Shown in pieces: positions 27,271 to 33,510 of a stretch of DNA of 64,000 bases. The stretch spans positions 1 through 64,000 of the forward strand of contig JAPOHD010000062.1 in assembly GCA_026671195.1 (NCBI GenBank). Direction: 5' to 3'. This DNA is from Draconibacterium aestuarii (lineage in GTDB: Bacteria; Bacteroidota; Bacteroidia; Bacteroidales; Prolixibacteraceae). Both the position numbers and the translations under genes were made by a program. A model generated the notes under the pieces. It was not told the DNA's origin. It did not search any database and was given only the letters and a program-made list of their open reading frames with translations. The stretch's first letter is position 1. The number at the start of each line of letters is the position of its first letter.

Positions 27271-28191
27271 ATGAAAGTAACAGTAGTTGGAGCTGGTGCT
27301 GTAGGTGCAAGTTGCGCTGAGTACATTGCAATTAAAAATTTTGCAGAAGAAATTGTTTTGGTTGATATTAAAGAAGGTTTTGCCGAAGGTAAAGCAATGG
27401 ACCTGATGCAAACTGCTTCGTTAAACGGTTTCGATTCAACAATTGTTGGTGCTACCAACGATTATTCGAAAACAGCCAACAGCGATGTAGCGGTTATTAC
27501 AAGTGGTATTCCTCGGAAACCGGGTATGACTCGCGAAGAACTTATCGGAATTAATGCAGGCATTGTTAAAGATGTTGCAACTAAATTAATTGCAGAGTCG
27601 CCAAACGTAATTATCATTGTGGTTAGTAATCCAATGGATACTATGGCTTACCTGGCTCACAAAGCTACCGGTCTTCCTAAAAACCGTATTATCGGTATGG
27701 GTGGTGCTTTAGATAGTGCACGTTTCAAATACCGTTTGGCTGAAGCATTAGAATGTCCTCAGTCTGACGTTGATGCAATGGTTATTGGTGGTCACAGCGA
27801 TACCGGTATGGTTCCATTGATCGAAAAAGCAGTTCGCAACAGTGTGCCTGTTACTGCATTCCTGAGCGAAGAAGTACAAGCCGAAGTTGTTGAAGCAACT
27901 AAAGTTGGTGGTGCTACATTAACAAAACTTCTGGGAACAAGTGCCTGGTATGCACCGGGTGCAGCTGTATCAGAATTGGTTCGTGCCATTGCCCTGGATT
28001 CTAAAAAAATGTTCCCATGTTCAGCATTGCTCGAAGGTGAGTACGGTTTAAACGACATTTCATTGGGTGTACCATGTGTAATTGGTAAAAACGGTATCGA
28101 GAAAATTGTTGAAATTGAACTTTCAGAAACTGAAAAAGCAAAATTAGCAGATAGTGCCGAAGGTGTTGCTGCAGTAAACGCTTTACTATAA
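27271..28191 (+). CDS. mdh: Malate dehydrogenase
   Basis: NAD-dependent interconversion of malate and oxaloacetate. The 306-aa chain is of the LDH-like MDH type. It begins MKVTVVGAGAVGASCAEYIA (dinucleotide-binding GxGxxG) and has an acidic end to strand 2 (VLVDI). The substrate loop is SGIPRKPGMTREELIGINAG, with arginines for the dicarboxylate. VSNPMDTMAYL follows, and the catalytic His is in GGHSDTGMVPL. It is monocistronic: it has its own -7 element and a good terminator directly after it. Confidence 0.96.
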   Translation: MKVTVVGAGAVGASCAEYIAIKNFAEEIVLVDIKEGFAEGKAMDLMQTASLNGFDSTIVGATNDYSKTANSDVAVITSGIPRKPGMTREELIGINAGIVKDVATKLIAESPNVIIIVVSNPMDTMAYLAHKATGLPKNRIIGMGGALDSARFKYRLAEALECPQSDVDAMVIGGHSDTGMVPLIEKAVRNSVPVTAFLSEEVQAEVVEATKVGGATLTKLLGTSAWYAPGAAVSELVRAIALDSKKMFPCSALLEGEYGLNDISLGVPCVIGKNGIEKIVEIELSETEKAKLADSAEGVAAVNALL

Positions 28192-28214
28192 GATTTTCTA
28201 TTTCAAAGAATATA

Positions 28215-28247
28215 AGGGTTCGTAGCTTTGGCTGCGAACCTTTTTGT
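28215..28247 (+). terminator. mdh terminator
   Basis: GGTTCGTAGC and GCTGCGAACC form a hairpin with one mismatch and a TTTG loop, followed by TTTTT. Confidence 0.85.
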
Positions 28248-28413
28248 TTTTATAGCGATTGGTTTATTGTTTAACGCCTGTCATTTCTGAATCGTTGACT
28301 GGCGGAGAGGAATCTTTATAAGTTAGAGGGAGACTACTTCTACTAAAATAAAACCATCCAATAGCTTCTCAGGGAGTTTCAAAAATCCATCAGAAAAACT
28401 ATTTTTACAGCCC

Positions 28414-28854
28414 ATGCGATATAAAATACCTATTAAAATTATTGAGCTTGAATCGGACAATTATCACCTCCTTGTATTTTCCGAATTTCAGGATGGAACA
28501 AAAGTAAACTGGGTGATCGACACCGGGGCATCGAAAACGGTTTTTGATAAAAACCTGGAAGGATATTTTGTGACGAGTGAAGATGAATTGGAAGAATTGC
28601 ATTCGGCCGGAATAAACGATGAAATCATAAAAACATCGGTCGGATATGTAAATCCGTTTTTTATCGGCAACCTGAAAGTGGAGCAAATGAAAGTTGCTTT
28701 GTTGGATATGGCGCACATTAACGAACTGTATTCGAAAGCTGTCGACCTACAGATTTGCGGATTAATTGGCAGCGATTTCCTGTTGAAATACAAGGCCGTA
28801 ATCGATTACAAACGAAAAAGGTTGTTACTCTCGGCCAACGCCTTAACAATTTAA
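28414..28854 (+). CDS. Retropepsin-like aspartic protease domain protein
   Basis: A 146-aa single-domain protein of the retropepsin-like/clan AA family. WVIDTGASKTVFDKN near residues 34-48 has the catalytic D-T-G. ICGLIGSDFLLKYKAVIDY near residues 115-133 matches the second conserved block of the half-pepsin fold. There is no signal peptide, so it should act in the cytoplasm as a homodimer. Related bacterial proteins are common and mostly uncharacterised. It lies just upstream of repeat array 2; no link is evident. Confidence 0.8.
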   Translation: MRYKIPIKIIELESDNYHLLVFSEFQDGTKVNWVIDTGASKTVFDKNLEGYFVTSEDELEELHSAGINDEIIKTSVGYVNPFFIGNLKVEQMKVALLDMAHINELYSKAVDLQICGLIGSDFLLKYKAVIDYKRKRLLLSANALTI

Positions 28855-28872: not shown

Positions 28873-29227
28873 TTAAGCAGTTGGAGCGCGTTGCTTTATG
28901 CTTGGCATTCATTACTTGAAAAATACTTTGCTTTACTTGAGTAATACGTTACTTTGGTTGACGTGTTAGATGCTCTACTTTAAGAAATAGATGTTTTACT
29001 TTAAGATATTAAAGTATTACTTTAAGATGTGTATGCTTTACTTTAAGAGAAATATACTTTACTTGAGGAGATCGATATTATACTTTAAGAAATAGATGGT
29101 TAACTTGATGAGATAGTTGTTCCACTTGAATAAATAATTGAATAACTTGAAGTGACTGCTACTTTACTTGAGGAAGTAGTTGCTTTTTTGAAGAATAAGT
29201 GGCTGTTCTTGAGGAAATTGTTTTCAG
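28873..29227. repeat. Degenerate 21-base direct-repeat array 2
   Basis: About 17 units follow one another. The TTKA core recurs at 28895, 28916, 28937, 28958, 28979, 29000, 29021, 29042, 29063, 29084, 29105, 29126, 29147 and 29168, each exactly 21 bases apart. It then recurs at 29188 (20) and 29209 (21), with a first degenerate unit at 28873. Typical units begin TTTAAGAAATAGATG or TTGAGGAGAT and end TTTAC. The core is conserved and the middle drifts. All six frames are broken by stops, so it is not coding. It fills the gap between the retropepsin gene and the convergent GGCT gene. Confidence 0.9.
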
Positions 29228-29246: not shown

Positions 29247-29690
29247 TTAGCCTAATGATGCTCGAAAATCGATTCTCCGGAATTCTTCCACCGTTTCCGG
29301 AACAACTTCTGTCAGGTAGTAGGGCAACGATTCCTGCTCAAATCGTTTTGCATCCCAATCCTGTGTCTCCAAATCATCTTGCTCCAAATTCCACACAAAC
29401 ACAAACGTTTCAATCACATCATTTTCAAAAACAATTTTCAGGGGAACAATGTCGTACTGATCGCCTTCGTAATAAGTAATGGTTTGCATCGATTTTTCGT
29501 CAACACCGCTTACAATTTTCCCTTTCACTTTTGAGGAAGTATTTTCTACAATCGCCGGATAGTCGGCTCCCTTTACTGCATATCGCTTAAATCCGTGCAA
29601 AATGGCATCACTTGTTTTAAATAATTTCCCGGTTAGTCCTTCCAGAATTTCAGGAAACAGCAACGATCCGTACACAAATAGATTTTTCAT
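29247..29690 (-). CDS. Gamma-glutamylcyclotransferase-like (AIG2) protein
   Basis: A 147-aa cytoplasmic protein with the GGCT/AIG2 fold. LFVYGSLLFPEILEGLTGK near residues 4-22 carries the YGSL substrate-binding loop. GFKRYAVKGADYPAIV follows. The acidic residue in YYEGDQYDIVPLKI sits where the family has its catalytic Glu. It could act on gamma-glutamyl amines or peptides; the substrate is not predictable. A minus-strand -7 element (TAAATTTG) is at 29817-29824. The stop lies 20 bases from repeat array 2. Confidence 0.85.
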   Translation of the reverse strand: MKNLFVYGSLLFPEILEGLTGKLFKTSDAILHGFKRYAVKGADYPAIVENTSSKVKGKIVSGVDEKSMQTITYYEGDQYDIVPLKIVFENDVIETFVFVWNLEQDDLETQDWDAKRFEQESLPYYLTEVVPETVEEFRRIDFRASLG

Positions 29691-33440: not shown

Positions 33441-33510
33441 AAGTTGGAAGTCGGAAGCTGGAAGTCGGAAGTAAAATATCTTCGGTCTTCGGTCTTCCGA
33501 CTTCTGTCTT
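33441..33510 (+). terminator. Inverted-repeat element after secDF
   Basis: GAAGTCGGAAG (33461-33471) pairs with CTTCCGACTTC (33494-33504), followed by a T-rich run. The left arm is itself repeated in tandem (GGAAGTCGGAAGCTGGAAGT), a simple repeat style I associate with Bacteroidota intergenic regions. Confidence 0.55.

Follow-up and report, generated by a model that had tools for sequence, protein, structure and literature searches.

The window, the stretch of 64,000 nucleotides from Draconibacterium aestuarii that was analysed, contains a degenerate tandem array of about sixteen 21-bp units at positions 28881 to 29227, with no strand assigned. The array is non-coding and one of many with this period in the genus. 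It is tentatively interpreted as a row of docking sites for a putative protein along one face of the DNA helix. This interpretation is the favoured one, at somewhat less than an even chance.

The array was read directly from the sequence, and it was recovered by autocorrelation and by a sequence-blind period scan, which outlined a segment of period 21 from 28881 to 29195. Each unit carries a TTTA or TTGA core (TTKA). Fourteen cores lie exactly 21 bases apart, at 28895, 28916, 28937, 28958, 28979, 29000, 29021, 29042, 29063, 29084, 29105, 29126, 29147 and 29168. They are followed by a core at 29188, after a step of 20 bases, and by a last one at 29209, after 21. The initial annotation had placed the cores at these steps, and re-reading gave the same positions; the array that it described stands, with slightly fewer units (16 cores, 28895 to 29209) than the 17 or so that it had counted. 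The family profile described below matches 13 strictly phased units from 28914 to 29186, all 12 steps being 21 bp. The final two units (29186 to 29227) come after the single 20-base step.

Autocorrelation of positions 28873 to 29227 gives a value of 0.584 at lag 21, and the next lags are 42, 84 and 63. In 2000 dinucleotide shuffles of the array, the lag-21 background has a mean of 0.294, a standard deviation of 0.025 and a maximum of 0.392, so the peak that had been proposed stands well clear of it. The highest shuffle value at any lag from 3 to 89 is 0.412. Lags 7, 10 and 11 are at background level only. Heptamer (7-bp) arrays are common in the genus; a heptamer origin of the window array was considered and rejected, as it has no lag-7 signal.

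The array separates two convergent genes, as had been noted. On the left is an aspartyl-protease-like open reading frame (ORF) on the plus strand (28414 to 28854; PF13650, 1.4e-7), and on the right a GGACT/AIG2-like ORF on the minus strand (29247 to 29690; PF06094, 1.9e-17); both are given as context only. The earlier suggestion of an iteron-like site was not upheld: both neighbours have Pfam names and neither is Rep-like, and no Rep-like protein occurs among the 10 flanking proteins scanned over all loci. Elsewhere in the window, positions 28173 to 28251 have an Rfam match to the trpB motif that is far under the cut-off (27.2 versus 59 bits), and this is probably a terminator region. Inverted-order heptamer-like repeats (AAGTCGG...TCTTCGG), terminator-like in form, lie at 33441 to 33510, with a SecDF-like gene on one side and a short ORF on the other.

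The genome-wide scan for the periodic core that had been proposed led to a second array. A search for four cores spaced 21 bases apart, at most three mismatches being allowed, gives 20 matches in 6.37 Mb, and these fall in two places only: the window, and a site at about 99.2 kb on contig C12. The C12 array consists of 14 units with the consensus ACTTTAAGCAATAGGTACTTT and is flanked by genes for a TrkA-type channel and a Cro/C1-type regulator. The likeness between its unit profile and that of the window array is 0.539, against at most 0.524 in 2000 column-permuted controls. A third array, which is short, was found on contig C54 with model R1.

A model built without the arrays of this genome ranks the window array as by far the top place in the 64 kb. 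The array scores 5.6 bits per unit on the minus strand and 1.3 on the plus strand, and its minus-strand score is beaten by only 3 of 4000 column permutations. The score used for comparison, 18.5 bits per unit, comes from locus L198, whose array was in the training set of the model. The window array is called a divergent member of the family, because it fits the model on the minus strand, yet the pattern of variable positions in its unit departs from that of the family (Spearman 0.18, p 0.45). Period and degeneracy are the clearest features that it has in common with the family.

This family, family A, was traced across the genus with a sequence-only model three units long. Its seeds were five arrays, two from this genome and one each from G017, G013 and G008. 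At E<=0.01 the model matches 20 of the 37 genus genomes, and 17 have no match. The best E is below 1e-5 in 14 genomes, ten of them outside the seed set; the remaining six are weak (0.0016 to 0.0097) and may be chance matches. Forty loci were retrieved among the matches listed, several weak places being omitted. Together with the window and C12 arrays, these make 42 arrays and 418 units. Many of the 42 are orthologous copies, and by the authors' own grouping they represent roughly two dozen loci.

Family A units share the consensus A A S T Y A A R M A A Y R A S Y R C T T N, in which T4, A10, A11, T19 and T20 are the strongest positions. The consensus repeats in 14 genomes at loci that are neither orthologous nor linked. 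Units are on average 0.55 identical within genomes and 0.54 between them, and when arrays of one genome are compared, no offset of the units stands out as best. Arrays of the same genome are therefore not recent copies of one another.

Most of the arrays (40 of 42) overlap no ORF, and the other two overlap a short one. Their neighbours, taken as mechanically called ORFs of at least 80 amino acids, are convergent in 20 cases, tandem in 15 and divergent in 7, and no gene type or orientation is common to the 42 arrays. A protein of 215 amino acids without a Pfam match (L173 4445-5092, for instance; also L189, L191, L192, L209 and L215) adjoins an array in all six of its close homologs, which are 64-100% identical (G008, G004, three in G024, and G012), and in none of 13 distant ones. 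It is not taken as a partner gene, because joint duplication of gene and array fits equally well.

Within the 42 arrays, the step from one unit to the next is 21 bases in 375 of 385 cases, under a penalty of only 2 bits for any other step. Several positions vary between adjacent units of the seed arrays. In alignments of orthologous arrays, whole units are gained or lost. Six of 23 orthologous pairs have a gap-free array alignment, and in the pair L199-L203 the three array gaps are all of 21. Over all 23 pairs, gaps in multiples of 21 account for 14 of 69 in the arrays and 2 of 111 in the flanks. The other 55 array gaps come mainly from diverged pairs, and part of them is misalignment between units.

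In most pairs the array is more diverged than its flanks, which include coding DNA. Divergence also varies within the unit: in the 23 pairs, which are not independent, it is 1-3% at positions 10, 11 and 19 and about 30% at positions 3, 13 and 21. Conserved sites were then assessed out of sample, the sites being picked from 17 arrays at other loci and one pair being used per locus at seven loci. The conserved sites had changed in 16 of 339 comparisons (4.7%), versus 102 of 842 elsewhere (12.1%), with p 6e-5.

An example of gain or loss is the locus beside a gene that is presumably ilvC. Among 30 loci, the array has 12-14 units in G007, G012, G030 and G002, and only 2-3 weak units in G006 and G029. 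At the array-free sites of G005, G009, G024 and G034, a terminator-like T-run leads directly to the leader of the next gene. No inverted ends or duplicated target were seen by eye when filled and empty ilvC sites were compared.

A different kind of change is found at the locus beside a gene taken to be nqrF. Family A arrays are carried there by G009, G024, G007, G012 and G029 among 30 loci. In G034, G013 and G005, the array at the same locus keeps the 21-bp step but consists of a wholly different unit, about TGGACAAGTCCGGCATTATCA, with a lag-21 identity of 0.56-0.62. The family-A score of these arrays is -9.5 to -11.3 bits per unit, versus +16.7 in G029. By lag-21 and family-A scores, no such array is present at the other 22 of the 30 loci.

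Periods were also surveyed by a scan that takes no account of unit sequence. It covered periods of 4-80 in 1.664 Mb (0.864 Mb of this genome, 0.4 Mb of G034 and 0.2 Mb each of G006 and G003) and yielded 29 arrays, 19 of them non-coding by a crude open-frame rule. The periods of these 19 are 21 (five arrays), 22 (two), 41 (three), 42 (five), and 7, 8, 16 and 57 (one each). Thus 15 of the 19 have a period of 21, 22, 41 or 42, a count that falls to 12 of 16 without the three arrays in stretches picked for known arrays (the window, C12 and the nqrF locus of G034). Some arrays are dispersed copies, since the 42-bp arrays at G000:C12:57720-57975 and G000:C67:51439-51665 have nearly identical units on different contigs; one of these two related copies is counted among the 15. 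Three more arrays of period 42 are among the ten set aside as coding.

Periods of 22 and 41 are not multiples of three but come close to two and four helical turns at 10.5 bp each. Five arrays have such a period, and codons are therefore no explanation of the period. No three-turn periods (31-32) occurred in the scan, 0.2 Mb of G003 contained no arrays, and neither did a shuffled control of 220 kb. The proposal that selection acts on spacing, made from the window alone, is borne out by the uniform steps of family A, by the exchange of units at nqrF under a constant period and by the periods of the scan.

Several other candidates for the nature of the arrays were tried and rejected. Intrinsic curvature, which the initial annotation had listed, finds no backing: AA/TT phasing at 10.5 bp exceeds column-permuted controls at p<0.05 in none of 37 arrays, and p is 0.95 for the window array. 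A general palindrome was rejected as well, the dyad of the family consensus being equalled by 297 of 4000 permutations and reaching p<0.05 in 4 of 15 arrays. The arrays are not of the CRISPR type, since their units are contiguous, conservation extends across most of the unit and there are no unrelated spacers.

The docking row is favoured because of the 21-base steps (375 of 385), the site constraint (16/339 versus 102/842) and the orthologous pairs that are gap-free or have gaps of 21. The unit swap at nqrF, the scan periods (15 of 19) and the recurrence of the consensus at non-orthologous loci also argue for it. Several observations count against it. Unit sequences differ widely between arrays, so that no single specificity explains them all. 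In some genomes arrays are missing at loci where close relatives carry them, G003 has none in 0.2 Mb and 17 of 37 genomes are without a match. Finally, the variable positions of the window array are off the family profile (0.18), a dyad is found in only 4 of 15 arrays and, of 69 array gaps, 55 have a length that is not divisible by 21.

In the proposed mechanism, a sequence-specific DNA-binding protein, or several proteins of differing specificity, would bind successive units. The bound subunits would touch along one face of the helix, and altered spacing would break the protein row. The length of the array may change through slippage or unequal recombination. The data are compatible with the array for a cooperative DNA-binding protein that had been suggested for the window, the binder itself being putative and not found. 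Local chromosome architecture is a first guess at the role of the row, because no gene type or gene orientation is common to the arrays. A broader and rather doubtful proposal is that there is a class of chromosomal architectural arrays set by helical pitch rather than by sequence. Their units would span two or four turns, and a locus could switch to another unit, read by another protein, at an unchanged period.

Bacterial minisatellites are usually regarded as slippage products or typing markers, and the main rival to the docking row is that the arrays are minisatellites without function. Duplication on wound or protein-bound DNA, through slippage or end joining, would favour whole turns and yield units of 21 and 42 bp, which point mutation would then blur; a dedicated protein would not be needed. 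This is a real possibility. It explains the diversity of units well, as one period occurs in many unrelated unit sequences, and it accommodates the gain and loss of whole units, loci that are filled in some close relatives and empty in others, and the lack of a common gene context. The out-of-sample site constraint is left unexplained, however, and further points against it are the recurrence of one consensus at unlinked loci of 14 genomes and the scarcity of non-21 steps despite strong divergence of the units. A mobile origin would also yield dispersed, intergenic arrays that are present or absent at one locus, as in a miniature inverted-repeat element (MITE) that carries a minisatellite, such as BrickBuilt in Porphyromonas gingivalis. 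This is very improbable here, and MITE-type ends were rejected: no terminal inverted repeats were found, nor was a target duplication at ilvC by eye. Within 120 bases of non-orthologous arrays, in a comparison that omitted pairs with a neighbour gene in common, the flanks have nothing in common except matches of 16-18 nt between one locus and two orthologous ones.

Coding sequence, either a remnant or an unusual gene of 7-residue repeats, would account for a period of 21 bases as seven codons, and both 21 and 42 are divisible by three. Among 37 arrays of at least five units, 11 have one stop-free frame. The six frames contain 114, 125, 273, 235, 110 and 199 stops, where column shuffles give means of 125, 122, 274, 233, 128 and 183; the largest depletions, in two frames, are mild (z -2.0 and -2.8). 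The other 26 arrays have no open frame, however, and the 315-base periodic segment of the window has 11, 9 and 8 stops in its forward frames and 7, 4 and 10 in its reverse frames, in line with the initial annotation, which had reported stops in all frames. A search of the protein database with a 100-amino-acid open reading of one related array gave no relative at E<=0.001, and periods of 22 and 41 are not codon multiples. The decayed heptad gene that had been named as a competing account was looked for in this way and rejected, and coding of any kind is improbable. Equally hard to credit is an RNA element that would be transcribed and carry repeated binding motifs. The sole favourable result concerns the plus strand of the window array, which beats 99 of 100 shuffles in folding (z -2.15). 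The minus strand has no excess of folding (z 0.23), no Rfam match overlaps the window array and there is no pairing covariation of note inside the unit. The arrays also lie in every orientation to their neighbours, and an exact step of 21 bases would be needless for RNA binding. The RNA element was rejected on the folding, Rfam and covariation results.

The choice between the docking row and its main rival matters in either case. If there is a class of arrays whose period follows the helix and is kept when the unit at a locus is replaced, helix position would be selected, which would point to a new DNA-binding system. If mutation sets the period, the arrays would expose a duplication process that is sensitive to the helix.

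Outside the genus, such arrays are found in few genomes. Model R2 matches 9 of 247 genomes of the order at E<=1e-4, this genome included. Single cases of 21-bp arrays that score together with the family occur in G254, G046 and G165. The array of G254, in another family of the order (L236 1391-2042, G254:C4), is about 650 bases long and has 29 units, in which the middle is GCAATGA-like. Genome G207 is classified in another family, but at L231 (G207:C27) its array and both neighbours resemble those seen in the genus. The contig is likely a contaminant and was set aside, because the proteins next to the array look almost the same as their counterparts in the genus. A pattern search of the whole order gave matches in 43 of 393 genomes and is not specific: its reversed control also matches many genomes, in some more often, and many of the matches are 7-bp arrays or lie inside open frames.

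Such 21-bp arrays are not reported in the literature titles and abstracts searched, a coverage outside which most subscription journals fall. Plasmid iterons are head-to-tail repeats of about the same length as the units described here. In contrast to iterons, the arrays are chromosomal, number several per genome and are far more degenerate, and the neighbours of the window array are not Rep proteins.

A model for the docking row is BldC, which binds head-to-tail along direct repeats of about AATTXXXX(C), as given in the available part of the source (PMC5859096); these repeats are shorter than the units here. Intergenic heptamer repeats such as TAACTGA have been reported, Bacteroidetes included, according to the accessible text of another paper (PMC4679880). 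They too are intergenic direct repeats, but of period 7, for which the window array has no signal.

The initial annotation knew no named element of this form, a statement that needs qualification, since intergenic minisatellites of 22, 23 and 41 nt have been published for P. gingivalis (available part of PMC4596501). The 41-, 23- and 22-nt tandem repeats of strain W83, including 464/PgRS, are there parts of MITE-like elements or have no stated location, unlike the arrays here; the periods of 22 and 41 fit the 21/22 and 41/42 classes of the scan, and the likeness is one of period (PMC4596501, same portion). As far as that portion describes it, BrickBuilt is a minisatellite-MITE with a 23-nt unit, about 19 copies per genome, and a leader and tail with terminal inverted repeats (PMC4596501). 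The period here is 21 rather than 23 nt, and ends of the BrickBuilt type were not found. Both are degenerate intergenic tandem repeats that occur several times per genome, with conserved and variable sites in the unit and a unit number that, at a given locus, varies from strain to strain, and on the published features available BrickBuilt is the nearest known kind (PMC4596501).
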